From Owenia fusiformis (taxonomy: Eukaryota; Annelida; Polychaeta; Sabellida; Oweniidae): a stretch of 64,000 nucleotides of DNA. Below are positions 457-54,500 of the stretch, one piece after another. Positions within the stretch are counted from its first letter, which is position 1, and each line of letters starts with the position of its first letter. The translations under genes were made by a program, and so were the position numbers. The stretch is taken from NCBI GenBank assembly GCA_903813345.2, contig CAIIXF020000002.1, positions 27,785,223 to 27,849,222 of the forward strand, read 5' to 3'. Below the pieces are notes generated by a model. It saw only the letters and a list, made by a program, of their open reading frames with translations, was not told the DNA's origin and did no database searches.

Positions 457-567
457 GGCAGTTGTTCTCGTCATCCATGAAAGGACAATCTTTGAAGCTG
501 TCACACCTCTTATATAATGGTATGCATTTACTGCTGTTTGTACATGGATGTTCGTATGGCGTACAGC
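457..567 (-). CDS. LDLa domain L7 (first of pair)
   Basis: This 111-bp phase 1-1 exon (acceptor TTATAG, donor GTATGT) reads CTPYEHPCTNSSKCIPLY, then RCDSFKDCPFMDDENNC. It is a complete six-Cys LDLa and the most C-terminal exon in the window. From the quartet pattern a seven-Cys LDLa should follow below base 1. Confidence 0.9.
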
Positions 568-3500
568 CTATAATAAAAGCAAACGATCATTATGTAACTA
601 CTGGATCATTTAAACATGATATCTACATGTGTCCCACGAAAGAGAAAGGAAAATTAAAGAAAATATGCGCCTAATGGACAATATATTTAGTTATGGAATA
701 CACATTTACTGTCGATAATTGCAATATGTGGGATACTTCCCACGATAATATTAATGAGGGATTCCAAATTTTGAACACATTTTAGAAAACGTTTCACACG
801 TCCAAGATAGGTATCTTATGTCACGATTAGCCCGCTAGTTAAATTAATTATTTTTGAGAAGAGATGAGGTGTTAAAATTTAAATTAGGCGTAAACCTACC
901 CCCACTTCTTATCAGATAAATATCATCTACAGCGACTGCTATGGCTTGATATGAAACCATAGACTTGATGTTGATTCCGAAATAATCAATAGCATAATAA
1001 TAGCCTATCGAACGTAGATCTATGGTTTCAGTAAGCCATACATTCGTAGTCTCGGGACTGATTCGTACTGAAAAATTAGAGTTACTATGTTATAGTAGCA
1101 TAGACATTGACTATATCTAAATTTTTCCGAACAATGTAAATGGTATGTGGTGAAGTAAATGCTACGTGTCACTCTTGTACAAAATAAAATGACACTTTTC
1201 ACTTTATAATTAAGATGCATATCAACAATATAGATATAGATCCTTTCATTGGTATTTTAACTGTTTTAAACCAAATAATACGTGTTCACCAAACACTGTT
1301 AAATGCTTTTGAGTCTGGATTATTGTTGTTCACCTCGTCAATTTTTATGGACTTTTTGATTATAGAAACGCAAACATGTAACAATATTACACTACAGAAA
1401 TAGATAAATAAATCCTCAATGTTGTTGCACTAATAAGATCTAAGATTTTACCATATCTACTTAAAGTCGTCTGCCGCCTGCTATAGCTATTTAATCTGGT
1501 TCCAGCGAAAAATTCCCATACTTTCAACTGTCCAGAATACATATCAACATCGTATCTATCCATGATAACCATAATCTTCAACTGAACCACCCCATTTGAC
1601 GTAGTAGTTGTTGGGAGTGAAATGTTAAAAACACTGTTTGTAGTACTCTGTGAAAGGTCTGAACCATTGGTTTCAAAGTATGCATAATGTCCTGGAATAA
1701 ACAACATCAAAAAATGTATTTGAAACGTTTCATTTATTTGGGTTATTCACCTTTTAATGAATAGATCTTAATCAGGGGTACTACAGAGTAATCGGATTAG
1801 ACAGCCCACAGATAACTGGCATTATTCAAGGAATCAGGGTTCAATTTCTCTAAAATTAGTAAAGTTACTAATTAGCAACTTTACTAATTTTGTAAGTTTC
1901 AAAAAGTTGTTTAAAAGTTACGAAACCGCGAACTGTATTTCTCGAGTTTTAGAGACTTACAAAATTAGCAAGTTTATGTATAGTCAATAATTATATCAAC
2001 AATGATTTTTTTGAATACTTAATCCTTCTGTGTCATATAATATCTGTAAGAACGAATGTAAAGGGGTCTAGGATGACTTACGAAAGACTTACAAGACCTC
2101 TGGAGGTACTATAAGAGCTACGATATAAATCGCAGATGATGTCATTATTTAGTAACTTTTCGAAAAAAGTTACTTATCTTCGTCAAGTACCTATTTTCGA
2201 GAAATGCAAGTTGTTAGTAAGTCCTAGCAAAACAATAGACTCACTAATTCGTAACTTTACCAACTTTGGAGAAATAGACCCCTCTTTCATTAAGTTTAGG
2301 CCAAGATTTAATTTTTTTAGTATCCCTATGTCAAGAAAATATTCATTTCAGCCATGTCTCAACGGGTATTGCTTATATCAAAATGAATTCGTTATATTAT
2401 GTGAAAATTTCAGCTCAATTTCAATGAAAATATTCCCGTGTCATGTTGGTACATTTTTGATACACCCTGTAAATAAAGTTTAAAAACATTGAAAGCATCA
2501 AAACTACTCGAATGGAAACACCCGGACAGATGCCTGTATCAAATTGTTTAACATTAGTCTGCAAACGAGTAACGATCTGGAATGCTAGGTGTCGGTAGAT
2601 TATATTTTGAAAGAGGTGTCTAACACTACAGACGCAAAAAATCCTTATGCATATCACCAATGGTTTTTGAGACACAGATAATGTTCATAAAAATATGGAA
2701 GCAAGAGAAACAATAGCATATTTAGACCACTACTGCCTATGTGTATTACCCATGCATGTCCCTAATGTAGCATCAACAGCTGGCGCATTTGCAGATGAAC
2801 TTAGTTTTCTGTTTGTGATACTCCATGGAGATTTGTATCCATTCCCCATCATTAATGAATCTGAGCAGCTCTCCTCAGTCCGATTCTCAAATGAGCATTT
2901 GTAAATCATGCGCTCATTGTCAACACGCCCGCCTTTTCAAAAACATCAAGAAAAAGTACTATTTTGCATACTCCAGACATTCCTTTTACGGAAACTAAGC
3001 ATGCATACGCTATAGGTCATGGTATGACATTTCTAGAACCCCTAATTAAGGAGCTGGTAGCACACTATAGTGCAATTAGAATTGAGATTTGGATTTATAT
3101 TTACATACCTACATACCGGTATTTATTTTTTATTATGGGGACCAATATACTATCAGCGGATAGGCTGAATTATGCCTGTCATTAGCTGGTTTCAAAAAAT
3201 ACTAATTGATTTACATTTTTACAAGTTTAAGAAATTAATGTACTGCTTTTTTATTACACTTATATGTGCACTCATATCTTGTTGACTTATATTCTGCACT
3301 GTTTCGATGAATGGGTCACTTATTAGGGTTAGTATACAATTATGAGGTGTAGAGGCATAGATGATAAATCAGCTAAACTTTTTGTGTCTTTTGAAATCCA
3401 TTTGTATAGACGTGTCCCTACATCTTATCCAAATATGTTATTACATAATGACACATTATAGTATAATCGTTGGACGAGCAAAACGCTTGCCCCCCCATAG

Positions 3501-6500
3501 GGCATATGTGATGAATATGAAAAAATCGGGTCAACTGTATTTGAGTTATCAACCAGACGAACAGACGGGTGGAAGGACGAACGAAGGCGTTCCCTATATA
3601 TCACTGACCATCGTTCGATGGGATAATTAATAAGACAGTGGATGAGGAAAACGGTACTCACATGGTACTATAATTATGTCATCTAAAATAACGCCTTTGC
3701 CTGTTATTTCAAAGACCACTCTAAATGTTCCTGGGGTGATGGTACTGCTACTATAAGTTCGCCATCTGTAACTGGAAACTGGAATAAAGCGAATTTAAGA
3801 TGCATTTAAACATGCTTTCAAACAGTAAAAAATTTAAATACTTAATTTTAGATATCTTTGTCCATGTATTCAGAAAGTATAGTCATATTTACCAATCAGT
3901 CTCTTAAGTAATATGTGTGTAGAAGAAAGGATTTGAGTCAGTCAAACGACAATAAAAATAATATACTGAATATAATATAATATACTGACATAATATACTG
4001 AAAAGTTACAAAATGTCAAAATAAGTTCAATTACAATAGTATAAATTCCATCTATGTGGACGACTGCAATGCAATTGTTCATTTATTTATTTATTATTAA
4101 TCATCATTATTTTATTCCAATAATACAAGTTGAAAGAAGTAAACAATTGCAAAAGTCTAGTGACATTGATGGCAATTTTGAATGGCATCTATAAGAATGT
4201 TATTTAAATTTTATACATAGATGAGAAAAAAGTAAATGAAATACCACTTAACTACACTCGTATCTTTAATATGTAAGGTGCATTTCCTTGGTCAGAGGGA
4301 TTCCAGATGTATTATGTTAAAATTGATTATATATTCAATAGATCTTAACCACAAACAAACATTCGTTTTTCATTCTACTGAGGATTTAATATGTCCAAAA
4401 AGTAGGCAGTGGACATTCCAACAGGAAATGTAAAGTTATCTGGTTTGAATAATCATATGAACATTTCTGACTAGCAACTCGTTTAAAATTGTGTGCATGA
4501 AGGTGAGCTTGAAAGAGAAGCCCAGACCTGAGTCGGTTTAAGAAATTTCTAAGTAACAAGGCATGGTATTCTTTCGTTTTGACGTTGATAAGATAGAAGC
4601 GGTTTCCGGACAACTCGGACCCGGGATGGGATGGAGGGGGGGGGGGGGGGGGTCGGATGGAGGGGGAGATTAAAACAAAGGCTAAATAATCCCCCCCCTC
4701 CATCCCGTTTTTATTATTTTCGATTATTTTTTTATATAACGTATAGTAATGTGTTTTACAAAACCAACGATGACAATAGTTTATTGATAATAACTTCACT
4801 TCAAGTAATAAACTTCAAGTATTTATTACAGGTCGTGTAGACCCCTGTTGCTTTAGTTATAGCCAAAACATTGGCATTTGCACATTGGCGAGGCTGCGCC
4901 TTTTTAATAGATCTTTTACCTTAGAAGTCAATCGGTTCAAAAAAAATCGTAGAAGACCTAACATATTTCCCCGTGCACTGCGCCTATTCATTTAGCAATT
5001 CAATAGTAAACTTTCTGTTAAAAAATTAAATCTCCAAGATTTCTTGAATTTTCTACCAAAAATCAGCAAATCCCCCCTCCATCCAATTCGTCCGATCACC
5101 AGGTGTGGTTATTCCAAAGAGCCATTCCTTTGAGAATTGTTGATTTCTTAGTCAAAGCGCTTGTTTGGAGGCGAATCGTATAGTCCCTGTGATTTTTTGG
5201 GATTTTTTAAAATAAAAAATGAGAAAATATGTCCAAATGTAAAGCTAAAATGGAATAACAAGTATGAAAACCTACAATGGAAAAATGTATATATTATCAA
5301 AAATGGAAACTAAGTAATACCAAGAAGTGTAAGAAGTGTAAATATTGTGTAGAAGAGGAGGATACTTTTTTTACCAATTTTTTTAATTAATGTCACCAAG
5401 TAAAAAGTATTGGGATGATGTAGAAACAGTGTTAAAAAATATAAAAATATAACTTTCACTGATGTAAATGTACTTTTATTCTATAAGAACATTATGAGAA
5501 AATTATTGTGATAATTTGTGAATGTGATGTCCCTCTCTTTTAGACGACAATGTTTTCCATGTTATCATAATTGATGTTTTACTTTGTGTATCATACAAAA
5601 CATCTTGTACATACGTGTGATATTTGCGGTGATGTTGGTTTCCTGATGAGTTGTTAAATCCAGTCGTAAAATTCTTAAGACACCATAAGGAGAAGAACTC
5701 GACCATCTTAGAACAGAAACTTTCAAGCAGTATTCTGATTGTGTTGAAAGTACTGGTGTCAACAATCTATTTCTCTCTCCATTACCTTGATATATTTGCA
5801 TTACTCGCCCTGCAATACATACCATAAAATACATGTGAGTAAGTACAAAACAATTTTAGTCCTAGTATTGTTTAGGACATCATTCGATAATGAAGAAAGC
5901 AATAAATTATGTTTAAATAAAGAGTAAAAATAGTCAACAGAATATATTCTCCATCATTGTTCCCAAGAATGATCAAACATGCCGTCGGTTCTCTCTTGAT
6001 TTCTTGAAATGGATTTTTGTCCACTGTAATTTTCTTGACTGTTAAAGGCTCGATAATGAATGTGGCTTTTTGCACTCAGTTTAAGTGCATGCACGACGTT
6101 TATTTTATAAATTTGATTGGTTGATACATTATCAAATGAGCATATACATCACACTACTATACCTTGCATTAGGTGTTCATGAGTAACCCATTTGGCTTAT
6201 TAGTAATGATTATGTATTTGTTTTTATTTGTCTGTTCCTTATGAATGGTTTATCGGTTGAAAATTAGATGCTAGTAAGGCACTTTCAAAAATATATTAAA
6301 CAATTCAATTAGACAAACAAAGTATCTTATGCATTTCTAGGTGTTAGGTATAGTAGTGTGATACATGCGTGAAGTCTGATGAACACTTATGATGTAAAAA
6401 CGCGTAGCGGGAATTACTAGCTCTTAAATGAAATTCCGAAATTCGAATCATTTTACTATTTGCTAATCGTGGCTAAAGGAATAACAAGCTGCTCCAAGCA

Positions 6501-9500
6501 GATTATGTGCGAGTTTTCGACAAAACATTCAAGTATCTGAACAATTGCAATCCGTATGATGAGAAGGGTTTTTAAATCTAATTCTTGAAGTGCAAATCTT
6601 ATTCAAATAAGAATAATGTTAAATGATAAGCTATGATTTAATGATTATAGCCCATGCGATTCAAAAGAAAAGTTCACAAAATGTCAAAAATGAAGAAATA
6701 AAATAGAGATGTATATTGTCCACCTCATAGTATAGGTCATTTAGAAATGGAGAAAATTTGAAGTTGAACTTTTCAATGGTGAAAATAACTGGTGTTAATT
6801 GTAGTCGCTTATTGGGAAATTATTAGTTCTCCAATTCATACTAAAGGAAACAAGGTAAATAGCAGTCTATCCCCATTTAAACTCAATGCAAATGGGTTTT
6901 TACGCAGGCAAATTTCCTTTCATTTATCTGTAAGTAATAAAGACGGAAAAAGTGAAGGTAAACGGGATATCATAAAATCGATTATTCATATTATGCACAG
7001 AACAGGATCTTAAGAGGTTCTGGACAAATCATTTGATTCTGGACTTGACATATTTTTTTTCCAACGAAATCACATCCAAGGGTTGAATTTTTATTGGATA
7101 TTTAGAGAGCGAGTCCTGTTTTGATTTCAATAAAAAGGTTAAAATAGAACGCTATTTGAGAGTTAATCTTATACTTTCATTACATTGATAAATTAAGGCA
7201 AATTCTGAAAAATTTTAAAGTGCATTTTTTATGAAATATTATCCAAGTATTTAGATGAAACGGTCTTATTTAAATACAAATCATAACATGATGATATTTT
7301 TTCATAAAATATTTCTTCAAGAAATTCAATTGAAGGCTCAAGATAAAACGAGCTAATTTAGGTGAAAACCCTTACATGATGATGTGTTTTCATGACTTCT
7401 TTCATAAAATTCCATCAAGGGGTGAAAATAAAATGATCGAATTTAAGTGATTTAAGGATCACGAGGATAGGTTTTCTTGGATATTTTCTATGAAATCCCA
7501 TCCAGTGGTCAAGGTAAAATTTTTATTTGGTATATTTGGTCACGTGTTCGAACCCATAGAACCATATAGGAACGTCATTTTGAATGTTACGTGATAAATC
7601 CATATAAGGCTTTTAGAACAATGTGGGGAAAGATGAGGGGAAACCCCTGACACCTGTTCACGATTTTATCCGAACGTTCATCGGATCATTTCGGTTTTTA
7701 TGCACTTCATTATTTTACCGAAGTTTGCCGATTCGATTCGTCGTATTTCGGAATATTGGGGACAATTTTATACTCCATTGGGAGTATTTTTAATCTACTT
7801 CTTATTACGAAGATTCCCGAACCTTGTTCGGATTAATCCGGATTTTCTGACCTACTTCATCTACCGAGATTTAACGAGTTTACATTCGGCTCATTTCGGA
7901 ATCCTGGTGACAATTTTATACTCCATTGGAGTATTTTTGATCTACTTCTTATGACGAAGATTTCCGAACCTTGTTCGGATTAATCCGGATTTTCTGACCT
8001 ACTTCATCTACCGAGATTTAACGAGTTTACATTCGTCTCATTTCGGAATCCTGGTGACAATTTTATACTCCATTGGAGTATTTTTGATCTACTTTTTCTG
8101 GATTTTGCCCTACTTATTATATCTTTACAACAAGCAAATCAAAAAATTCGCCATGAACGGGTCTCGATCGACTAACCTAGAGCATGGAAGCTAGGCACGT
8201 TAGCCATGAGGCTAACGTGCAACCGATACGAAAGGATAAAAGTATTATATATTTATACCGAGCGTCAATTCAAAATGATCTTCACTTTTGACTGCACGTA
8301 AATACAACTCGTCAGTTGTATCCAGAATAGATGAACGCCTATGGTACTAGTGAATAACCAAGTCCCAGGCGAGTGGTTCGCACCCCACCGTGATATGTTA
8401 TTTTTGCTTTTTTAATACGACAGAAAGGAGCAAGGTCACTGTAGCGGTCCTGATATCGATACATTCTACACGCAATAAAACCAGATACCTGCGTGTGATT
8501 AAAACTACATGTTAGAGCGTCGATATCCTACAAATCCTATTTTTTCATAAAAATATTTTTTCATGAAATCCAATCGAAGGGTGAAGATAAAACGATCTTT
8601 TAGGTAAAACAGCTTTACATGATCTGGTGATGTGTTTTCATAACTTTTTTCATAAATAAGACCATTCTCGGTTTGGAGAACAAAGTTCGTCACTCTAATT
8701 GAGCGTTATCCCTGCTTCGGACAAATTTGATTTTTTTACATAATATAGATTTGAATGTCTTCTTTTGAATAGTCATAGTTTAATTTGGGTAATATTTCTA
8801 GATTTTTCATATAAAAATTACTAGTGAAACACCCAACGTCGCTTTTATGATTCGTACCACTTTTTTAACTTGGTGTATTGCATATTTCCGTGGGTTGATT
8901 TGAAAAAAAGACAAACAACGTATACATGAATATGTCATAAGCATATAGTGAGATAATTGTTAGATTAGGTTTGCTATAAGTGACTTTAAAACAAAAAAAA
9001 CAACAACATTAGTTCACGTGTTAAAGTCCCATTGACCACGACATCAAGGAAAATTGAGCTTTTTGTCATCAGACATCTTTATAGATGGAACTAGCTATGT
9101 ACTACATTTTTAAATACACTCACATTGTACATGTAGCTGTAATATCTAAGATGTTATTTTTATTGATGAAAAGATTCTTACATACTAAAGTTACATTAAA
9201 ATATCAATTGCAATAGCCACCTGTTTTTAACATCCCTTTGTCACTCATCCCTTAATTATCTCTGTGTATCTTAAACGTGTGTGTGTTCGATGTTGATAGC
9301 ACCCGAGTGCAACCTAAGGAGCACATACAATACATTTTGTGTATGCCCAGTCTGGCCGCCTTATATCTGCCTGCACCGAGAAATGGGCGCAGCTTTGACA
9401 ATTAACGAATGATATAACGATATCACGGATTTCACCGAATGTTATTCATCCCTAAATAGCTTTTTTATTTAGTCTTATGATCCGACTGATGTTTCAATTT

Positions 9501-12500
9501 TTTGCAGTGACTCTGAAATTGCTGCGCCAGATATGACATCACAGCGACTCATTTTCCTACATTTAAATCACTAAACTAAATCAATTGAAACATAATCATT
9601 AAAGAATGAGGACCTTGTATTTTACTTTGGACGAGGGTAGTGGCCATGTCTTGGCATGGCTAGTTGTGCATTAACGTTTGATACTGTTGTGCGGATAAAA
9701 ATAATGAATATATGTTAAAGTAGCACTAAACAGATACTTTTAAAGTTAAAAGAATATAGTTACATTTAAAGAATGGGCCCAACGAATAGATATTGAATAT
9801 AGGACTCGTTTGATGAAACGTTCGTTCTTTTAATTCTAATAAACCTAGAAATCAATCAACGATTAAGTAAATTGACAAGACTTCATGTTCAAGTTGGCTG
9901 AATTTCGTGTAACTTAACTCTGTTATGTTTCTAGATTTTACATATGGAGAACAGAATTCGAAATCATAATCACAATCGTATTTTAAGGCAAATAGGCCAT
10001 GAATATGCTTTTAGTTACACGGTGGATGATCAAATTAACACATTTTGGATGTTGAATTTCATTTCAAGTTCATTCGAATTCACGCATTATCGTGGGAAAG
10101 CCCATGGCATTATCCAATAAAATTGATATATATACTGTCTAGGCTGAGACTAACATATGATATTAATGTATTTAATATACAGGATATATCTGAGAAAGTT
10201 ATGCAATATATCTACACGAGAAATAGTAGGGACCGAGGGTTGATATATTACCTTTACCTGTCGAAAATCGAGTATAAACTATGAGGATTAGATACGCATT
10301 GAATGTAATGGAACCGTCATGTAATAATTAGAAATGATAATCACAATCAAATCATGAATATTTTATCTAGATTTAAAGTGCTTAAGATTTATTTTTAAAA
10401 CTCAACCGAACTATTAACATTTAAAAGCACCGAACGAATTTTATGGGGATTGCTGATGAGCGGGTGGGATGGGATGGGAGGGATAAAATGAAATACTAGA
10501 TAAAATATTGATACCTTTACGCATGTCAATCTCAAATTAGAATGCATATATCATTATCTCTTTTATTCTTCTGTATTGTAATACGATAGTCTGATTATTG
10601 TCAATATCCTATACATGAAATAATGTACAACGTGTATTCTACATTGAATAACAAACGAAATAAAACTCATCTTTGTACGAATTTATTTTTCATATGACAC
10701 AAAGTAACATAACATTGTTATATGTTGCATTTACGACTACTACAGCAAATCAGAAAATTCGTACAATATCAAACGTAAGAGTTGTTCACAAATACATTGG
10801 TATTTTGATATGAGTATCATGTAGTATTAAAATATTAAAATCATATGATCAGCAAGTTTATAAGCTTAATATTGTATTGTTTTTTATTTAAGTGTCGCAT
10901 GCTTAATTTCATACATATACATCTGTACAATCATCCAAAAAGCCTCGAGCCACCAATGGCTTATGAGACACTGCTAATCAAAATAAATCATATAATATTA
11001 TATAATAAGATGCATAATATGAGTCAGTTGCAGAAATAGGATTATGAATAAAGCAAAGTTCATGACCTCTATTACGAACATTGTTTGATGAACTCGATCA
11101 CTCAGTCAGTTGTTGAACATATGCAAATGTGGTCAGGTTATAAATATAAGTACAATTTAAGTCCATGATATTTTCACATATTGAACATAACACTCAGTTC
11201 ACAAAGAGATGTATACAAATCTAATCCACAAGTAGAAATGATTGTTTCATGCTGTTTATGCATTGTGTATAAACTGTAATCCAAAACATGAATAAAGTGG
11301 GCAAGAGGTGGTTGTATGATGGCCCATAAAATCACATTATGTAACACCGGCACCCTGGTTCAATATAGTGCAGTGGCCCATGTTTGATATACGTACATCA
11401 AAACTCATGTTTTTTCAAGGAAAGAAGCTAGATTAGTGATATATTGAAAAATCAAACTACTATACCCCAATACTGTAGCCCGTATTTCTTTAAAAGGAAT
11501 ACAGGCTACAGTGAAGTTGCAAATGGAGGACCTTTGTTTATTTCCATAGTTCTGGAGGAATACTAGATTTTACATTGTATAGATTCATCGAGCAGTTTGC
11601 AACGCACTATCACCAGAAATGTCCTATGGAAAAGGACAAAGAATACCCGCTCTATTTGCAACTTAACTGTACCCTGTATTCTTTTTAAATGTGTTCACGT
11701 GGTATGGTAGTGTGATACTCCCTCTGCCTATGCCTACATCGTTCAATCTTTTTTTCATAGTATAACGCCTTATTAATACAACAGTTATTGAGCTGTTAAG
11801 AAAACATACTAACAAACAAACCACCGAGTTTAGAGTAAGACATATACATGTATTGTTCTATTATCAAATCATATATTGTGTCCCAATTCTAAAACGTTAA
11901 CAGTTTATGGTGTACAATAAAACTATTACTATTAACCACTTTAATATATTTAGACATAAAATATCAAGTTACTCATCAGCCAACAAATCTCAAAATATCG
12001 AAAAATGAAAAATACGAGGTACTTGTTCACTCAAATCTAGGAGTCAATTGGTAATGTGTACCTATAGATAGTTCTCAAAGTAAATGAGCAAAAGCGTAAC
12101 ATTTGTATGTAGCATGCTTCATAAAACACTAAACTTAGCCCAAAAAGTAAGCGTGCATTTTGTTCCTGGCACTGATTGGTTAATAAGTGATGCAATTCGT
12201 TGAATGCACGATGCACTCAAAAGATTAGCAGCTGGGAAAGGCTATTGAACAAAAAGTACGCTTTCGTACTCAAAAAAGGATTACCCTTTTACAACTTTGA
12301 CAACTTTGAAGCATGAACTTCGGAAGATCTAACGAAATGTACTTACTGTTACCCTGTGGATCCCAGGGTTTTGATATGTTCTACAAAGTCATGCAAAGAC
12401 AGACCATATATGCACTAAAAATATCTGTGACACTTGTATGATATGTATTCCACTTTGAACCACCATCTATTTCAATATTGTGAAAATATATATTTCCCAA

Positions 12501-39500: not shown

Positions 39501-42500
39501 ACTTGTTTAAAACCTTAAACTTCCTTAAAACCCATCTAAATTGTGTTTTACATATTAGTTCCATACAGCAATACCATAAGTATCACCATAGAGGGATGGA
39601 TCTAGAAACTATAGGGGTCTGCCATGGCTCTACCTGGAATTCGTAAATTTGAAACCTTATATTTACAATTTTTCAAATTTTGGACTTGTTTAAAACCTTA
39701 AACTTCCTTAAAACCCATCTTAATTATGTTTTACATCTTAGTTCCACACTATAAAACCATATATATCATCATAGAGGGATGGATCCAGGAACTATAGGGG
39801 TCAGCTATAGTCATACACAAAATCCAGTTGTCAAAAATGTCAAATTTTTCGAAAAAATCAACAATTATTTTCTCAGCTCCTACTTCTTCCATGGCTTTGC
39901 ATCTTTCAGGGTTACTAACCCTTCTATTGGGCACTTCACATGAATTTTTTCAACCTCTTACAGTGTCTAGTTGAAAAGTTAGGATCAAAATAGTAAGGAA
40001 ATTGGTCACGAATTCGCCCCCTGGGGTACACACTTTGTACTAATATTCAATTTTTTAGGAGTAATCAGCATCAATTATACTGCAAATGATTCATATATAT
40101 AATATCTATGTATGTCACTTACAAACATCAAAATATCTAAGGTTATTTAGTGTGAACAATTTTTTTCCCCGGGGTGGGGTGTTTTTGTGGGGTAGGGGGC
40201 TAACTCTTCAAAAAAAAGAACTTCCTACCACTCTGTGAAGCTATCACCTAGGTGGAAATTTCATCCAAGACTCTCCCCTAACTGAAAATGCTGCCAAACC
40301 AACTATACTCCATTTATTGAGAATTTCCCTCCTCGCCCCTTGAGTATTTAGTCTTTGAATGAATTAAAAATTATAAAGTGTCTGAAATAAATCTATAAAT
40401 GTATTTGGCTGTTGTTTTACCATTTATTCATTCGATATAAAGTTGGAGATCTACAAATTATGGAAATAATATTAGAAACAAACGTACTTCCATTCATGTC
40501 CCAACCGGCGAACTTCCAGGATCCGTATTCGTCAGAACTTTCGAATCCACATGGAGAAAGCTCAAAATTACACATAAAGATGACCTCCTGGTTGTTCATA
40601 TTCGCAGCAAAGCTATGGCTTCTATTAGCCATAAGAGGCACTGTAAAATTCGCCAAAAAATAGTAAATGACGTTTAAATGTTCTTGTAAAATCCATCTCT
40701 CCTTAAAGCAGGGTCCAAATATTGCGTTAGGTATTATGTTATTCAGACTTATTACAGATCCTTTTAGTGGTAGAAGAGTATGTATTTCAGTTGAAGATAT
40801 CGGGTAATCATCCATCTTGCCAGGTACTTCCCTATCTTAGTTCTTGGCTACTACAATACCTTCAGGCACCAAAAATATTTCCATAATTTTTATTGGAATT
40901 TTCACAAATTTTGCTCTCTAAATGTGTTCCTGTTCTATTTTAAAGCACCGGGAAAACTTAATTATTGGCTTTGACCTAACCCTAACCCCAACTGTACCCC
41001 TAACCCTAACGATACCCTAACCCCTGGGCCCAACCCTTACCCCTAACCCAAACCTTGGCCTAGCCCTAAGTGATCAAATACAGTGTACAGAGAAACCACC
41101 TATCCATTTAGAGATCTATAATTGCAACTATGAATTGTTTTGGTTTACTTTGATTGTTAACCTAGTGACATTACTGTATTACTGTATTACAATATCAATG
41201 ATTCCGTTTTCCATTGTCAATGATTTCGTTTTACATGTAACCTATATAGTTTTTCACGTAAACTATATAGTTTTGAATACAGATCTAACCTCATGTGCTA
41301 CTTCCAAAATACATTAGTCTGTTCAGTATGTGTAACAATTACTACAACAATTAGGCTTCAATCAGGTAGAGTTTATCCTACGCTTTTGCTTGTAGTGAAA
41401 TCAAAGAAGGACACATTTTGGATATCAGTGTCAGGAAACTATTTTTGGGTTCTCTCTGCAGGGGCGTAACCAGCTTTCAGTCAGGGGGGAGGGTGCGATC
41501 GCCACAAAAATTCGGTTTTCAGTCAGGAGGTGCGATTGTGCCATAAACAAGCCAAAACCTATAAGATTTATCTTGAATTTTCGAAATTTTGTTCAACTTC
41601 ATTCAAAATTGAGCTAGAAGCTTCAAATAAAAAGCATTTTAAAGCTTTTTTCCTCTTCTATATCATTGTTATATTTTTTTATTTGTTATGGGGTGTGGGG
41701 GAATGCGATCGCGACCCCCCCCCCCGGGTACGCCTATGCTCTGATTCATTAAAGACATGGTACCAGATTGGTGCCTTGTTGTGGTTATGTTACGAAGTAA
41801 ATAAGACAAGTATCAGGCCTATACTAAAACGGTTCGCGGATTCATGTTTTGTTTATATGTCATTATCAACACCAATCAAAAGTGTTGCCAAAGCAGCAAC
41901 AAACCAGGTGCTTGTTGACATTATTGTAACGCTCGCAGCCAGAATAGAGAATTACTTTACAAGATGGCGGAATACCTGATGCCTGAGGGGGTCAAGGTCA
42001 AAACGGCGGATTCACTTACCGGATGGCGAATTGTCTGAAACCTTGTACTGACGTACATGTAATTAAATTGTAATAACGATGAAACTTACGACAATTGTTC
42101 TCATCCTCTGCCGTACTGCAGTCTGGTTTACAATCACAAACTTTTCGTTTATCTATACAAGCTCCATCATTGCATTCGAATTGGACGGACGAACAATCTA
42201 CAGAGAAGATATTGATTGGTGTTAGCACCCCGGGGTTAGCACATATGTCTTAACAAAACGGAACCCATACTACTGTTTCTTAGTATCTTCCTAAGTCATC
42301 AATCAAATATAATTTGCACCTATACGTTTCAAAATTAAAACCGTGTCAATATCTTAACCTTTGTAACGGCCACATCTGGATGGCTCGACTTGAATTTGGT
42401 GGTCACATTGTTATTCAAATTGATTTGAAGTTTTTACCATTTTTAATAGAAAAATATGTGATCTGTGTATTATATTAGGACAACATAATCTCGAGCACAA

Positions 42501-45500
42501 GCCAATACTGATTTAAACCATTGTTTCGCACTACTTTTGAATTAAAATCGGAATGGATTACACCGGGTCTATATTCCATACTATTGAAAGATACACTTTA
42601 AAAATTTGTCTCCATTCAATCCGTAATATCCATATCAATGATTGTACTTTACCACAGTTTTTCTCGTCGTCCTTCTCTGGACAGTCGTACACACCATCAC
42701 AAATGTTGTAGAGAGGTATACACTTAGATGTGTTAAAGCATCGCATTCCGTCGAAATCACATCCTACAAATTAAAGTTTCAAAGTTATATTTACAGGTAA
42801 GAAACACATCAAAATTAGGTTTATCGTATGATCTGTAAAATGAAGCCTTCTGATTGGTCAGTTCTTGTGCTGTACCAATCTGTATTATTGCTACTGATAT
42901 TGTCCCCACTGATCATCTCCCTCGCAATACAGAAAATATTGGTACGGAGGGGACATTCTCAGTAGGAATACAGAGGATCACACGATAAAAACGTTATAGA
43001 ATGATTTGATGCAGGATATATTCTGTCTCGATATTCTGTATTGGCACGATCGACTTCGTATCGTTCCAATACGGAATTTCTCGAGCAGAATATATCCTGT
43101 ATTGCACTTCAAATCATTCAATAACTTATAGTATTTTAGTGCCTCCAATAATTAGAATTCCTCATTGGAATGTGATACACTAGGTTTTTTACCGGTACAG
43201 CTACAAATCATATTTGTTTTTTACTGATTTTCTATTTACCTCTAGTTCCCAGTTCTATGTCGTCTATTGCTACACTTCCTAGTGTTGCACCACTGGTTTC
43301 AATAGCAAACGTAACATTTTCAGCACCAGTAGGTGACTTAATGAACGCATACTGCCATGTGTTATTAGCTGTCAAAGTAAAATGTCAATATGAGTGCGTT
43401 ATTTACTGATCAGATTTCTAACGTGTAAATGGTTCAGATGTGCGGGAACGGGAAATTACAATTGGTTTTCTTTTGATAGCCTACGAAATGCTAGTCTCCA
43501 CATTGATAAAATTAACAAGTGATTCGTGTCCATAAACCAATACAGAAATCTTAAATATGAACAATTCGAAAATATATCTAATATAATCTTACTATATAGT
43601 ATTGGATTCCAAAGAAATTCCGATGTTGATTTCTCTTTTATATATACCCGCAGTCCACGCAAGGAAACAGAATGGTGTATTCTATAGGCAAATCTGAGCC
43701 CAACGGTGCCTGTCATTGTTGGCAGATAATACCTCGCACTGCCAGAAGCTGGCGATGAGGCAAACACACCTAATAATGGTAAAAAGAAGTTTGATTAGTA
43801 TAAATGCTTATATATGCGACCTACGTGACTTGTTATCATAATTGAGGACACTTTGAGTTGGTGAAGTGAAGCAAAATAGAAAATTATGTCATATCTCCCG
43901 ATATTTTAACTTTATCCGTGAAAATATCATTTAGTAATTGGAATTGAATAAAAAACATTTAAGCGTTTTAGTTGAATTAATAGTGATTGTACGATTTCAC
44001 AAACCTCTGCAATTCTTGAATGTATTATCAGATGTAGGTCCCCAATAATTGTCACTTGATCTCCCAGACTCAACGATCCATTTCAGCGGTGATATCATAT
44101 CATTTGTCATCTTAGAACATTTAGACATATAGTCGTCTTCCTCAAATGTACACCTAAATAGGGGGTCATCCTCCAACATGTCCTCGCCGTTAAGATCTGC
44201 ACAATCAAAGTTTTACTTACTAGCATTTCTTGAGTTATAATGACCTTCGCTAATCATATTTTATTTAAGTTTTTAGAGCTATGGTTGGCTTACCGGTACA
44301 ATTTGACGAAACAATTAAGTCATCTATGGCTATAAACCTAGAATTATCAGTAGCAAATCTAAAACGTATTTGGTATTCTCCTGGCTGTATATTGGTCAGA
44401 ATAGCACGCCGCCACGATGTCACTGGCCTACCTATTAAATACAAAACACAAAAGTAACAATGATGTATCGCTCTCTGTTATATGCAGAGGAAAAAACAAA
44501 CATGTTAGAATGTATTTGTTTGAGTAATTTTAAATAAATACTTCAAATTGAAATAATAACGTGACGGCCAACAAGCAGAAACGAAAAAAATGTGAACATG
44601 GACTTCAAAAAAGAATATAAAAATTATACCAGATTTTGTGTTTTTTGTTTATATTTATTAGGCCAGTGGATTTTAATTATTTGTTTAACGTCAGTTGTAT
44701 GCATGAGTTCTCGTTTTTTCAAAAACAAGAAAATGTTCTCTGAAATTCTCTTAGGAACCATGAAATATGTCTTCTGGAAGAAGAATTAAGCCTCAAAAGA
44801 GTAATATTTTCGGGTGGAACCAACATTTAGAGGTTTTAAGCTAAATGTATCAACCTAAAATAAATTCGACTTAAGTGTTGGAAGAGGAGATAAGTGGGAT
44901 CCGTTAAAAGGTATAAGTTAAGAATAACTGATTTTCCTTGACACGTTAGCATGATTAAATTTACAACACTGTTTTCATCTATTTTGACCCCTCTGAAAGT
45001 CTATAAGCTTTGCCAATTTTTTTTACAAAATTAACTCATAAACTACTGTTTACAGTGACATGTGTTTTTACAAGAACACAAATGTGTACAAAATGTCCCC
45101 ACCTATGGGTGATTTTGTCAAATGGTTATCCTAGAAATGAGTAGACAAGACTTTACCGACACAATTTGAGGACAGAAAATCCAAAATGGACACCTTGAAA
45201 TTTACCCAGAATGCCAAAGAACCACCCCTGAAAATTTGAAATTGATCCGTCACACAGTTAACCAGAAAACATGTAAACAAGACTTTACAGACAAGATTTG
45301 AGGACAAAAAATCCAAAATGGCTGCGTTGACATTTATCCAGAATGCCAAAAAACTAATCTCTTCTAGATTTTCATACTAAGAATCATCCCTGAACATTTT
45401 AAATTTCTACCAAACGGTTCACCTGGAAATGCGTAGACAAGACTTTACAAACAAGATTTTAGGACAGAAAATCCAAAATGGCTGCCTTGACATTTACCAA

Positions 45501-48500
45501 GAATGCCCAAAAACTAATCAGATCTAGATTTTCATACTAAGAATCATCCCTGAAAATTTGAAATTGATCTACCAAACGGTTCACCTAAAAACGCGTAGAC
45601 AAGACTTTACGGGCAAGATTTTAAGACGGAAAATCCAAAATGGCTGCCTTGACATTTATCCAGAATGCCAAAAAACTAATCAGATCTAGATTTTCATACT
45701 AAGAATCATCCCTGAAAATTTGAAATTGATCCACCAAACGGTTCACCTGAAAACGCGTAGACAAGACTTTACAGACAAGATTTTAGGACGGAAAATCCAA
45801 AATGGCTGCCTTGACATTTACCAAAAATGCCCAAAAACTAATCAGATCTAGATTTATACTAAGAATCATCCCTGAAAATTTGAAATTGATCTACCAAGCG
45901 GTTCACCTAGAAAAGCGTAGACAAGACTTTACAGACAAGATTTTAGGACGGAAAATCCAAAATGGCTGCCTTGACATTTATCCAGAATGCCAAAAAACTA
46001 ATCAGATCTAGATTTTCATACTAAGAATCATCCCTGAAAATTTGAAATTGATCCACCAAACGGTTCACCTGAAAACGCGTAGACAAGACTTTACAGACAA
46101 GATTTTAGGACGGAAAATCCAAAATGGCTGCCTTGACATTTACCAAAAATGCCCAAAAACTAATCAGATCTAGATTTATACTAAGAATCATCCCTGAAAA
46201 TTTGAAATTGATCTACCAAGCAGTTCACCTAGAAAAGCGTAGACAAGACTTTACAGACAAGATTTTAGGACGGAAAATCCAAAATGGCTGCCTTGACATT
46301 TACCAAGAATGCCAAAAACTAATCGGATCTAGATTTTCATACTAAGAATCATCCCTGAAAATTTGAAATTGATCTACCAATTGGTTCACCTGAAAACGCG
46401 TAGACAAGACTTTACAGACTAGATTTTAGGACGGAAAAATCCAAAATTGCCGACAATAAAAAAGTGATTATGAGTTTTTGCTGATTTCTTTTTACAAAAT
46501 TATCACATATAACTACTGTTAACAATAACATAGGCTTTTACAACAAAGCACATCTGAAATTAATTATAAAGCTACTAAATATTTAAAGTATGAAAACTCA
46601 AAAACACTATTCAATATGATACAAAGTATTATCGTGTGCTAACTTTTCCTAAAACATTCAAAATGGCTGACATGACTGAGCTAACAGGTCCAAATAAACC
46701 TAATCAGATCTAGAATGAAGTGATCTGAACAAGATATAAAGTTTTAAAAGCAACTGTGAAGCCGTTTTTCTTAAAGTTTGCAGACAAGGATTTTAGCATT
46801 TGACTTCAAAATGGCCGACAGGAAGTAGGTATCGAGTTAATTTTTTTTCATCCACATCTGTATGCACTCATAAGTTATCCCTGAAAATTTGAAGGTGATA
46901 TCTATAGCGGTTTTGGAGAAAACTGCCGGACGTACGTACGGACGGACGGACAGACAGACGGACGCGCCTAGGCCGATAATATGGCCCAACACTATGTGAT
47001 GGGGACATAACAATGCAGGACACCTGAAATTAGTTATAAAGGTATTGAATGGTCCAAAAGTGAACTGAGAAAGAGTCGAAGGCAAATATACAAAGCCGGT
47101 GTAAAAGGGTAGGAGGTCCTCTCAAATTATGGTCCTACTCTCCATTGATTTATATGGTGACCTAAATACAACTCGTTCCCTCATTATCTTATACGCAATC
47201 AGGGCCAGTAAGGGCCGTTAAGAAAGGGGACCATAATCCCTGGGGGACCATCATTTCTTTCACACCGGCTTTCAAAGCCGGCTTCTACAGTACATCTGAA
47301 GCCGGCTTCTGGCGTCACCAAGAAGCCGGCTTTTAAAAACCGGCTTCGAATGACTTACAGAAGCCGGCTTCTGCAGCTACCAAGAAGCCAGTTTTAAAAG
47401 CCAGATTCTCTCTCTCAATCATTTTGTTGTGCATTATGCATCTTATTCTCGTATAATTAGCATGGAAATGAGAGAAAAAATGAAAATAAGTAAAATTACA
47501 ACATATTGCAAGAGTTTTTGCAAAAAGTAATTTCAAACCAAAACTATGGGGGAAATTTAATTCTAAGTAAAAATATCGATGAATTAAATCATGTTCGTTA
47601 AATAAGAGTAGATTATGCATTGCATTTCTGTTTGATAAAAACGCATCGCTCATTTTACAAAACTGGCTCCAACTTGGAGCCTGTTTGCAAATCAGCTCGC
47701 TCCATCTTACACAAGCTATGTAGGGGCAATCTAGCAACTGGGAATAACGGGATACTGTTTCATGATAATTGTTATGTGCATTATGCATCTTATTCTCGTA
47801 TAATTTGCATGAAAATGAGAGAAAAATGAAAAATACGTAAAATTATTACATATTTCAAGATTTTTTGGAAAAAGTCATTTCTAGCCAAAACTATGACAGT
47901 AAATTTAATTCTAAGCACAGATATCGATGAATAAGATCACATTCATCAAATCAGAATATATTATGCATTGCATTTCCGTTTAATAAAAACGCACCGCTCA
48001 CTTTTCAAAACTGGCTCCAACTTGGAGCCAGTTTGCAAATCAGCTAGCCCCATATGACAAATGCTATGTAGGTACAATCTGATAACTGGGAATCACGAAA
48101 TACTATCTCACAGTTATTTTTATGTGCATTATACATGTTATTCTCGTATAATTTGCATGAAAATGAGAAAAAACTGAAAAATACATAAAGTTGTAATATA
48201 TTTAAAGATTTTTTGCAAAAAGTCATTTCAAGCCAAAACTATGAGAGAAAAATCAATTCTAAGTAAAAATATCGATGAATTAGATCATGTTCACCAAATC
48301 AGAACAGATTATGCATTGCATTTCCGTTTAATAAAAACGCATCGCTCATTTTACAAAACTGGCTCCAACTTGGAGCCAGTTTACATATCAGCTCGCTCCA
48401 TCTTACACAAGCTATGTAGGGACAATCTAGCAACTGGGAATCACGGGATACTGTCTCACGATCATTTCTATGTGCATTATGCATCTTATTCTCGTATAAT

Positions 48501-51500
48501 TTGCATGAAAATGAGAAAAAAACTGAAAAATACGTAAAATTGTAACTTATTTCAAGATTTTTTGCAAAAAGTCATTTCAAGCCAAAACTATGAGAGAAAA
48601 TTCATTTCTAAGTACAAATATCGATGAATTAGATCACGTTCACTTAATCAGAACAGATTATGCATTGCATTTCCGTTTAATAAAAACGCACCGCTCATTT
48701 TTCAAAACTGGCTCCAAATGAATTTTGAAAAATGAGCGGTGCGTTTTTATTAAACAGAAATTAATGCATAATATTTTTGGAATTGATGAACGTGATCAAA
48801 TTCATCGATATCCATGCTTAGAATTCAATTTACCCGTATAGTTTTGCAAAAATATGACAATATAAACTATATTCAAAAGCAATCTTCTGCAGTACGTCAG
48901 TAAGTAAGAAGCCAGTTTTAAAAGCCGGCTTCTTGGTGACTCCAGAAGCCGGCTTCTGTTGTCCTTCAGAAGCCGGTTTTTAAAAGCCGGCTTCTTGTTG
49001 ACTGTAGAAGCCGGCTTCTGTAGTACGTAAGAAGCCAGTTTGTAAAAGCCGACTTCTTGGTGACTCCAGAAGCCGGCTTCTGTAGTACGTAAGACAGTTT
49101 GTAAAAGCGGTTTTTGCCTTCGAGTACTTCTGAGTGAACTTGCCACAACTAAAAAGGCAGCCACTTTGATAATAGGAAAGCGTTTGAACCTGGACTCACA
49201 TGAGGGATTTCTGGATTAAAGAGGAACCAAAATAATTTAAAACAGTAATCCTATTGATCCAGGTTTTAAAATCTGCCACTATTGTTACCCGACTGAGAGA
49301 GACAGATGGTCAAATTAATTATAACTAAAATTGCCAACTATAAAAAGCAGATATGATGTTTTGCAGATTTTTATAATAAATTGATCTCTTAAAACAAAAA
49401 TGGCGGCTATTTTGAAAATAGATTTTAATCCAGGAGTCATAGGGTTTTTTCTCTATCAATGTTGAACAAAAATAACTTAAAACAGGAATTCTATCGGCAT
49501 AGGTTTTAAAACAAATGGTCCAAAAGTGAATTTCCCCAGACAAAAATGGCGGCAATTTTGGAAATAGGCAAGCCTTAAAACCAGGAGTCGTAGGGGTTTT
49601 TCTGTATTGTTGTACATACAGACGGACAGACGGACCGACGGACCGACAGACAAGTGAGTGATTGCAAAAACTCACCATATGATTATGAGATAAAAAGAAA
49701 AGAAGTTCTGAGCAAATGAGGATTTCATCAAGAATTTCTTCAAAGAACATTTTTTAACTCTATATCATTTTATTGTGCCTCATGATTTATGGTTATATAA
49801 ATAACTATGGACCAAAAACGATTGTATAAGTTGTTTTTAACCTATTGGATAAAGTGGAAAACTTTGGAGTGTAATTTTATTGTACTATAAATTATGTTGC
49901 ATTATATTGTATTGTAGTATTGTATTGTATGTATTTTAAACGAAATTGAAGTTCAAGGATTCGAACGTGAAACAAAAAACATTTTGAGCAATCCATTCCA
50001 ATATGTTAAATAAAGTCGCATTTTCTCAAACAATTTCTGTATGATAATAATTACCTATATAAATTCAGGTTTGGACATTTAGGAAAAGCCGTGCATGAGA
50101 GCAAAACGATATTGTAAAACTATGACAATTGATTCGACACTTATATCAACTACTTTATATCTCTTTTACTTGTGGGACACATTGAATAAACTGCACGCTT
50201 GTAATAAACTTATCGTACTTGACCATATGGTGGATACCGTCCCATTCGATGTTTCATTTCTGTCGACATATATTGTTTCGTAACTGTAAACATAAGTGCT
50301 TTTGTAGTAAAACATGATACAATGTGGTGTAGTGGTGCGAATTTTTGGTGATACTGCGTATGTGTAACGCCGGCTCCAAGAAGATGATGTGCGGACCCCC
50401 AAGTAGTGTCCTGGAAGCATACATGTACAGTTCAACTAATATTTCTTAACAGTGCTGATATGCAATATTCCAGATTCACATTGTTATAAAATTATTATTG
50501 TTATGCGGTAACGCGATACAAAAATATGTCATTATTCCGCAATGAATAAGGCATATCCACTTACGGTGTATGACAGATTCACCTGTGTAATATGACAAAC
50601 TCACTAACCAATAAGAATGCGATGTGGAAGTACGCAAATGTCAATTGCATCGATTAAACGAACGGACAAAAGTTTATAAATTATTATAATGATAACTGAA
50701 ACAACAGGTCTGTTGAATATATCAGCTACCATCGAATAACATACATTAATGGTACCTGCATTGTTTGATGTTGTTTTACACGCAAATACAGACCGCAAGG
50801 GAAAGGTTATTATACATAAATAAACGAACCTACGTTCGTGGAGCTTTATAAATGACTTTTTAACTAAATCGACAGGGGTTGATAAAGACTAGATAAAAAC
50901 CAACAAAATCACGAGTATTAATGAATTGTTGTATTGGCAACCACGGTTACACATTCTGATACTTCCGGTAGTATTATTCAGCAATTGCACATAATAAACT
51001 TACTTAATCAATCCGCGCTCACAATATGGGTAGTCCAGAGTAGTTTTACATTTATAATCGATTCATTCGACCAATAAAATCGAGGCTTTCTTTACCAAGT
51101 TTTCACCTGCGGCACATGGTATATTCTGCAGGTGAGTATGACATATTCACTGTGGAATATGCCATACTCACCTGCAGAATATGCCATATACCGCAGATGA
51201 GTATGGCGTATTCACCCGTATCACATATACCGCACAACCATGAATATATGCCATATGTATAACAATTATGATGGCTTGTACTTTTGATTTTTTATTTGCC
51301 AGATGGATTCTGCAGTAAAGTTTTGAATATCTATTGCACATCCCGTGTACCCCAAATTCAGCCATAGATTGCGCAATGATTGTGAGTACTATTTTAACAG
51401 ATGCTGGAGCCGCAGCATGCTCAAATATCAGAACTTATAGTAATACAAATGAATGCTAGTCCACCATAAACAACGAGACTGGAGTCTAACACGGACGGTT

Positions 51501-54500
51501 TTAATTGAACATCATGTCGTTGGAAAATCGATACTGCATGAATCATAGGAGATGTCTTTAATAAATGGTAAACTATCAATTTGAAAAAATTCAGGCTTGA
51601 GAATGCCATGGGCGAAACTCTTAATTCGATAGTGGCTTCATAGAGTGACACAACCTTTTTTCCAAGAGGCAAGTCACCCCAAAAAATAGTTTCATCCTGA
51701 AAACGTTGAGATAATGATTATTAAGTGAACCCTTAGATATTACATAAAATCATCATTTTCAGTAAGAATACTTGGACCACAAATATATTATTCCATATAG
51801 GCCGAAGAGAAAATTCTTGGAATGAATAGCACAACAGTCGAAAAGGTTTATACCACTCTGTGAATCCACTGATAAAATAGCATCCTTTTAACTGAAAACA
51901 CTATCAAAGTTGGTATACACCAATTAGAACTCTTGTGGCTTCTAGCGTATGAGGGACGTCCGCAAAATCAGGCCAATAAATTATTACAAAATTAGCTAAC
52001 TTACTTAAATTTCATAATAGTAATAACAAAAAAATTGCAATACAAACCATATGAATTTGATAATGTATGGTCCGAAAAAGCGGTGGCCCGTGCACGGGTC
52101 CAAATGTAGTACGAATTTAGACCTCCGCTTGTAAATCCACAGTCATGCATCTCAAAATTGCAGCTTAAGAGGACAGTTGGTTTATTCTGTTTAAATGTAC
52201 GTTTCCTTGTTGGCTTGGATATATGGGGCGTCCTTGCAATATTGACTGGGAACGATGCTGTGGAATTGAATGAAATACAAATATACAATGGTTTTAAAGG
52301 TGTGATTTTCACATATTCAGCAAATGTTATTCATAAAGTACAGATTACCAAGCAAAGGCATATATAAGTCATTCAATGAGTTCACAGGAAAATGCTCTCA
52401 GTTCAAAGGTTTTTAATATTTTTTCACGAAGCTTTCACATAACATCCACAAAACGTTTAGCTATTGAGTTGTAAAATATCAGCATCTTGATTGGTCGAAG
52501 ATGATGTTACTATGGTAACTTGACTTTTGGGTAGGCGGGCACTTTAGGTCACACAATTTACCATTACAGAAATATAGGAATGCATGCAAATAAATGCTTA
52601 TTTCCCTACTTTATTTTTTATTTGTTCTCATTTAAATTACAAAAGGTTAATGTAGAACAGCTACACGATATCAAAATCACTGTTCTAGTAAACTTTATAA
52701 CATGCATGATTGCCCTGATGAAATCATCAAACAAAACGACAATGGAGAGATTCCGAGATAGCTGAAATTGAAAGGGAAGAAGCTTTCACAGATCATAGCT
52801 ACCATTAGATACTGTAGCCCCGCCTACTCAAAAGTCAAGTTATTATAGTAAATGTTGTTTTCACCATCACATAAGGTAATGATATCTTGGGAATCAATAG
52901 TCAGATATTTTTTGTAGATGTAGAATATACGTCTGATTTTGTGTATCTTATACCTTCTGAGTTTTTTTGGCATATAACGCGCCTAACAATCCTAGCTTTT
53001 TTAAAAAATGTTTATAATATTTATATTTATATATTAGTCCATGGCATGACTTCATGAAGGATCCGTAGCACACTATAGTGAAGCAAAATTTGAACCAATA
53101 GTTAAGCAGGTGCATATGTATTGACTTTTTCGAACACCATGGTGTGAAAAACTTCCGGCTTTTGGGTCGAAAAATGTCTTTAACCACAAGGGGTCAAAAA
53201 ACGTAAATGTTTTGATTCGAACTTTTATAAATTCTCTCATATCATGACTAGTATTAGGTTGTGCACCTGCACCTAAAGTATTTGCCATTTTTATAACAGT
53301 TGTGACGTGATTTGCTATATCTAAATACCGTTCCGGGTGGCAGGGACCTGGTATGAAAAAAATATTTAGAAAAGTAGCTGTAATATAATATTTTTTGTTG
53401 AAACTGATACTGAAAGTTGTTAAGATGTTGATCTTTATTATCTGAATGTTTCATGATCATATTAGAAAATAGCAAAGTTAGAGTGGGGCGTCAAAGACTT
53501 TTGGATCAGCCTCGTACATTTTATAAGACACAGACCGTTTTTCTAAGTATAAGGACAAAATAAAATATTATCCTAATGTAAAGTTTTACTATAACTTCAC
53601 TGTAAATGTCGTTGTTTTATCAGTTTAATTACACAAGTGTGCTTTTCAGATTTTTTTGATTTTTCAAATACCTAGCATATCGACAAAATTGCATGTATGG
53701 AATATTTAGGTGATTTATAATTGCGAACATATTAGTTTTCTTACAATTTAATACATTTTATCACCAGAATGTATCCATATTATCGCAAGGGGTCAAACAA
53801 CAAATGGTTGTTCATGTTTTATAAAAAAATAATTCAATAACAAATAGGTAAGATTTATATTTAATTAAATGTTACAGAGGTATTGGTATGTTCATATATT
53901 CCAAGGACATGACTAATAATCTGTTTGAGTCAAATGCAATCGAACGCTTTACAATTCTTCCACGACGTTACTGCTGGCTATCATCAAATTTTCTGATGGT
54001 TGTTTCTTCTTTGACCTTACGGCTGGATACATTCAAATTTTAAGCAGATAATGAAAACTATTTTTCTCAATGATTCATCAATTCGACAAAGTCTTGATAG
54101 CTGTTTTATAAGCAACTGAGCAATATGTAACTACGTGAAATAGAATTTTGGCTGTAGTCGCAAATAGTCAGGGAAGAGCAATAGGCCCTCCTTTATTGAT
54201 AATGTTCACCGCGGAATAAAAGTCCATTTCTAAATACGTATTGAGACTCATTTTGTGAAAAACTAGCATAATTTAAGTCATTCTAATATAAAAGTGATTC
54301 ATTTGTACCATTTATCTCATTAATAGCTGAGAAACAATACAAAATGTCGATGCACTGATAACATAGTTTTTGGGTATCCAAGAGAAAAATAACCTCAAAC
54401 TTATAGCTTAGAAACCAAAATCATATATTTAAAATTGTTTTGTATTATTTTCTGTCGCGAACTCCCATGCAGTGTCTCGGTAATAGACACTGCGGCGGGC

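Follow-up and report, generated by a model that had tools for sequence, protein, structure and literature searches.

The minus strand of a 64,000-nucleotide stretch of the Owenia fusiformis genome (498 Mb; positions 27785223-27849222 of contig CAIIXF020000002.1, here C2), below called the window, encodes an array of MAM and LDLa domains in which an ordered quartet, MAM-MAM-LDLa-LDLa, recurs. Judging from the sequence, this array is probably the stalk part of a large mosaic protease, an S1 serine protease of enteropeptidase type, and the quartets of the array appear to be old duplicates of a whole four-domain block, an origin that we regard as well supported. Positions are numbered from the first letter of the window, and negative coordinates lie beyond its edge.

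Thirty-one exons run on the minus strand from 52257 down to 457: 24 encode the eight quartet MAM domains, three exons apiece, and seven encode one LDLa domain each. Every exon has a length that is a multiple of three, is preceded by AG and followed by GT, and has phase 1-1, and the joined frame contains no stop. Three times over the domains follow the order MAM, MAM, LDLa, LDLa, and at the window edge come MAM, MAM and LDLa. The preliminary description of this DNA had read the same order, a span of 457-52257 and uniform 1-1 phasing; the exon model confirms all three, the phasing for 31 of 31 exons, and both end coordinates fall on exact splice borders. Below, the quartets are numbered Q1 to Q4, their MAM positions are called MAMa and MAMb (a and b), and their LDLa positions 1 and 2 are called L1 and L2. 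A ninth MAM (U3; exons 56587-56432, 56234-56043 and 55302-55159; Pfam MAM 1.6e-34) lies inside the window ahead of Q1, and two further LDLa exons (-2302 to -2409 and -2541 to -2651) continue the model in frame past the window edge, giving the fourth block the order MAM-MAM-LDLa-LDLa-LDLa; both of these LDLa lack the seven-cysteine pattern found at position 2. With U3 and the two outside LDLa the model comprises 36 exons, each a multiple of three with AG/GT borders and phase 1-1, and 1888 residues free of stops. The exons were mapped with home-made MAM and LDLa profiles on the minus strand, the MAM profile being seeded from copies elsewhere in the genome; exons missing from the chain were taken from lists of phase 1-1 candidates that were open and had acceptable splice sites, or from open frames in the gaps, and some exons were chosen partly by likeness to their class.

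Past the window, on the same strand, the two LDLa exons are followed in frame by an SRCR domain in two exons (-3131 to -3345 and -4799 to -4922) and by a complete S1 domain in four, namely the His exon (-34669 to -34777), the Asp exon (-37538 to -37827), the pocket-cysteine exon (-45241 to -45386) and the Ser exon with the stop (-47222 to -47431). These six exons join the 36 upstream ones in matching phases, giving 42 exons and 2252 residues with one terminal stop. LDLa stands directly before SRCR and SRCR directly before S1, the linkage being by frame, and it is also by frame only that the MAM domain of the predicted heavy chain is tied to the protease. Pfam recognizes Trypsin (6.9e-47) and SRCR_2 (3.8e-07; 31.1 bits, cut-off 27) in the tail. 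Of the 47 PDB sequences that match the tail at E up to 1e-30, human enteropeptidase 7wqx is the best (3.7e-47), its alignment covering the SRCR through the end of S1. In alignment to 1ekb and 7wqx the catalytic His, Asp and Ser are all present. Opposite the pocket Asp of enteropeptidase, at what we take to be position 189, the Owenia protein has Asn, and its activation site reads VIPL-IIGG, the human counterpart being ITPK-IVGG. Because of this Asn in place of Asp and the Leu before the cut, the protease is probably neither trypsin-like in specificity (Lys/Arg cutting) nor trypsin-activated. The heavy and light chains of human enteropeptidase are bonded through Cys772-Cys896, according to the available part of PMC9663175; the two cysteines that we read as this pair are both aligned in the tail, the residue matching being our own count. 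The likeness to enteropeptidase (TMPRSS15) thus extends over an LDLa-SRCR-S1 C-terminus, an intact triad, the presence of MAM, the aligned heavy-light cysteines and the best solved-structure match of the tail. In contrast, the Owenia gene has at least nine MAM and at least nine LDLa domains and a quartet that recurs; residue 189 is Asn, Leu precedes the activation cut, and the assembled parts show no CUB, whereas the human protein is described with a single MAM, a single SEA and two each of LDLa and CUB (PMC9663175, available part).

A paralogue with the same domain kinds in the same order was found at about C3:6102450-6191548, where a MAM chain ending in MAMa-MAMb is followed by three LDLa, SRCR and S1; it differs in having one quartet, the only one found among the seven MAMs of the stretch examined, and a second SRCR-S1 set in tandem, identified by eye. 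Its penultimate MAM scores 63.4 with the a profile versus 15.1 with b, its last MAM 63.9 with b versus 1.8 with a, and its first LDLa 68.3 with L1 versus 3.7 with L2; the remaining MAMs are mixed (e.g., C3_2 with 23.9 for a and 18.0 for b, C3_4 with 24.1 for a and 36.7 for b). The general MAM profile used on C3 held five quartet MAMs and U3, which could bias the finding of domains there, not their assignment to a or b. The C3 SRCR reaches 39.9 bits (cut-off 26.1), the activation sites are PLIVGG and PLIIGG, and the C3 MAMb has two cysteines, compared with three in the quartet gene. The MAM preceding the C3 quartet groups with U3, which precedes Q1 (90/78). The paralogue was recognized by domain order and profiles and not by the MAMb-L1-L2 protein query, which returned nothing outside the locus better than 2.7e-4 among the 63 matches listed and so revealed no further copy of the repeated quartet in the genome, a search that cannot show absence. 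In the tandem SRCR-S1 set at C3:6182138-6191548, Leu again stands before the cut, the pocket residues, read by eye, are other than Asp, and the S1 exons are duplicated at a spacing of about 1.5 kb.

The array and the protease could also be encoded by adjacent genes, one for an adhesion or receptor protein with MAM and LDLa domains that stops close to the window edge, the other for an SRCR-S1 protease. The junction introns are long, 2.8 kb from the last window exon to the next one and about 29.7 kb from the activation-site exon to the His exon, which would suit such a pair. However, every junction between the last quartet exon and the stop of the protease is phase-matched, within one open frame, and the C3 paralogue, itself read from genomic sequence only, has the order MAMa-MAMb-LDLa x3-SRCR-S1; we consider two genes unlikely. 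Besides the two long introns, several observations weigh against a single gene for an enteropeptidase-type protease. The quartets and the protease are joined on the strength of exon phase, domain order and the paralogue rather than of transcripts, and in the paralogue itself the last MAM is separated from the first LDLa by 48 kb, 2 kb of it unread, with the exons not joined into a frame. The SRCR model PF00530 scores the tail at 21.7, below its cut-off of 26.1. A possible phase-1 donor lies ahead of the stop in the Ser exon, so the protein might extend further, and Pfam scans of the assembled parts revealed no CUB, the introns not having been searched for it. At the other end, a search for first exons resembling signal peptides turned up a single weak candidate (61477-61384), which was not adopted; the 5' end was not located, so the gene model gives no secretion signal or membrane anchor.

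That the quartet as a whole was the unit of duplication, as the preliminary description had proposed, is borne out by positional similarity, position-specific cysteines and the one-quartet paralogue. The mean pairwise BLOSUM score of MAM domains is 128.8 within the same position versus 71.8 within the same quartet, and that of LDLa domains is 95.0 versus 73.7; for both kinds the split by position is the most extreme among 35 possible (in the case of MAM, 2 of 70 labelings, which make one split of 35). The number of cysteines is four in MAMa (with the codon of the last one in Q4 MAMa split across exons), three in all four MAMb, six in all four L1 and seven in all three L2. The seven-cysteine LDLa pattern, searched for on the minus strand of 164 kb, occurs in the three known copies only, with no hidden copy in Q4. 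Leave-one-out profiles placed eight of eight MAM and seven of seven LDLa domains at the correct position. In a MAM tree of 20 rows a single branch parted the a and b groups in 100% of the 200 bootstrap trees, the separation being counted between the two groups only. Six comparisons of the four blocks by same-strand blastn (E up to 1e-5; the blocks as cut excluded 27499-25501) produced a single alignment, of Q2 with Q4 (114 bases, 93%), and the duplications are therefore old. The near-absence of such alignments rules out a recent duplication or an assembly artefact.

Piecemeal duplication of domains, with positional likeness due to convergence or gene conversion, would account for the copy branch order, which varies by position (the pairs are Q1a-Q2a and Q3a-Q4a for MAMa, Q2b-Q3b for MAMb), and the trees are weak enough to accommodate it. 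Against this stand the excess of same-position over same-quartet scores, the cysteine patterns common to each position, the paralogue with a single quartet in the same order, and the lone 114-base alignment, which gives no sign of recent conversion; piecemeal duplication seems to us quite improbable. The tree test suggested in the preliminary description agrees with grouping by position for MAM, although the trees are weak. The MAM branch between a and b has support 91/79, while one of 17 inner branches is starred; pairing of the neighbours Q1a and Q1b is not rejected (approximately unbiased test, p 0.235). A grouping of the b domains with C3_7 differs from the best tree, yet is not rejected (p 0.412), and the grouping of the a domains with C3_6 is present in the best tree at support 34/0. 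The LDLa tree is weaker: it is built on 36 columns with 12 of 17 inner branches open, L1 and L2 are parted in 88% of 200 bootstrap trees, Q3L1 is placed beside L3 (97/78), and neighbour pairing of Q1L1 with Q1L2 is not rejected (p 0.229), nor is a group of L1 with C3_L1 (p 0.197). The leave-one-out test, in turn, was not fully blind, since some exons were partly picked by class likeness.

MALRD1 is not known to have an SRCR or a catalytic protease tail. A MALRD1/Diet1-type protein without catalytic function, the kind with which the preliminary description had compared the array, would likewise carry many MAM and LDLa domains mixed in a single frame, as in the nine MAM interspersed with nine LDLa given for MALRD1 in the available part of PMC8804323, but the Owenia array has a 2+2 pattern, two MAM and then two LDLa, and its frame continues into an SRCR and a complete S1, so that a MALRD1 assignment is not supported and this type of protein is very improbable. 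Among other known systems, MAM-trypsin (S1) proteins have been described in Nematostella, and the SRCR-trypsin pairing has been placed in the stem metazoan (PMC6767649, available part). The Nematostella Trypsin-MAM proteins share with the quartet gene an S1 domain joined to MAM domains, whereas a MAM-MAM-LDLa-LDLa repeat is not mentioned in the available part of that source. Two loci on C1 of the Owenia genome also carry MAM/LDLa chains beside S1 motifs. Because of these loci and the Nematostella proteins, the S1-MAM kind of protease is already known, and the quartet gene, with its four-fold quartet and altered pocket, is a variant of it.

In the simplest history the one-quartet form seen on C3 would be ancestral, and the quartet gene would have gained three more through copying of the four-domain block as a whole. 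Such duplication would leave the frame intact, as all quartet exons are in phase 1-1. The zymogen would be cut at VIPL|IIGG, the stalk remaining disulphide-linked to the protease, and the array may position the protease or gather substrates. By analogy with enteropeptidase, whose heavy chain is reported to be needed for efficient substrate recognition and whose LDLR-CUB-MAM part moves about a loop beside MAM (PMC9663175, available part), we infer that the quartet array might act as a long binding stalk, disulphide-bonded to the protease after activation. A more specific and doubtful proposal is that the quartet could be a rigid unit in which the odd MAMb cysteine bonds with the extra cysteine of the second LDLa, forming a ruler-like stalk for a protease whose specificity is altered. 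The three-cysteine MAMb in four of four quartets and the seven-cysteine position-2 LDLa in three of three are the pattern that suggests it; in Q4, however, the odd MAMb cysteine is present, but the LDLa in second place has six. The gene offers a readable case of a block of several domains that could multiply without breaking its gene because its exons are in phase 1-1, and the single-block form apparently persists in the same genome. The non-catalytic part of an enteropeptidase-type protease would here be several-fold larger, and the pocket and activation site of the enzyme point away from trypsin, so that one can ask whether stalks of this kind adjust the choice of substrates or the reach of the protease.

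The reliability of the exons varies along the array. The Pfam MAM model matches five of the eight quartet MAMs in addition to U3, with no match for Q2a, Q4a and Q4b at E up to 1. When the second and third MAM exons were ranked against 183 spurious phase 1-1 exons from the opposite strand, by profiles that omitted the tested copy and still contained U3 and the C3 relative, 13 of 16 came first of 184. Because they did not rank first, the remaining three of the 24 quartet MAM exons, Q2b-M (rank 17), Q4b-M and Q4b-C (rank 6 each), are tentative, a further point against the model as drawn. In a whole-domain control of five domains, none of 2000 random triplets matched the real score in any of them; with the first exon kept real and the other two swapped, the real score was reached by none of 2000 in four of the five and by 760 of 2000 for Q4b, so that the case for Q4b is made by its first exon, its place in the order and its splice sites.

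All quartet domains lie on the minus strand. In Q1, MAMa occupies 44294-52257 (exons 52257-52048, 50410-50219 and 44422-44294; Pfam MAM 2.6e-14) and MAMb 43240-44196 (44196-44005, 43769-43593 and 43368-43240; 1.4e-12), followed by L1 (42653-42763), which is among the two Pfam LDLa stretches in the MAMb-L1-L2 protein, and L2 (42090-42197). Q2 consists of MAMa at 34077-40640 (40640-40488, 34711-34511 and 34238-34077, both later exons ranking first), MAMb at 30213-32096 (32096-31914, 31037-30843, which is the tentative exon, and 30341-30213; 5.8e-13), L1 at 29717-29830 (Pfam LDLa 2.2e-06) and L2 at 27616-27741, which has no Pfam stretch of its own. In Q3 the later exons of both MAM domains rank first; MAMa is at 21114-25281 (25281-25126, 24731-24510 and 21257-21114; 5.9e-13), MAMb at 19408-20687 (20687-20511, 20210-19995 and 19539-19408; 1.1e-15), L1 at 19177-19287 and L2 at 18608-18715 (Pfam LDLa 3.1e-09). 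Q4 has MAMa at 3662-18332 (18332-18168, 5809-5615 and 3778-3662, the later two ranking first), MAMb at 900-2932 (2932-2750 and the tentative 1691-1452 and 1067-900) and L1 at 457-567 (Pfam LDLa 1.9e-06).

Divergent MAM-like exons (CDFER.GWDN...) flank the gene on the same strand, at 66827-69416 and at about -48088 to -50483. The downstream set begins less than 1 kb past the protease stop and matches Pfam MAM (3.8e-10); the tested upstream one fails Pfam MAM, and the MAM exons at 66.8-69.4 kb, past the window, are not assignable to the quartet gene. These exons may be fragments of adjacent genes or belong to the ends of the quartet gene itself. The first intron of Q4 MAMa (12,358 bases) contains, on the plus strand at 16380-17745, a relic resembling a long interspersed nuclear element, with a reverse transcriptase open reading frame (RVT_1 5e-08) and another with a zf-RVT match below cut-off. 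An intronic tandem repeat with 162/322-base periods is located at 45217-46447, between the second and third exons of Q1 MAMa. Elsewhere in the genome, C3:6112802-6117764 holds 39 copies of a 127-base unit (96% match), each comprising a MAM exon end and a GTAAGA splice donor, so that the array multiplies a splice site together with the end of an exon, in steps whose length is not a multiple of three. At C1:2769746-2772552 a 117-base unit, which contains the end of an intron, including a site resembling an acceptor, and an LDLa exon start, is repeated 24 times (97%), and at C5:1881018-1882013 there is a run of MAM matches spaced 147 bases apart. Tandem repeats born at or in MAM/LDLa exons thus seem to recur in this genome.

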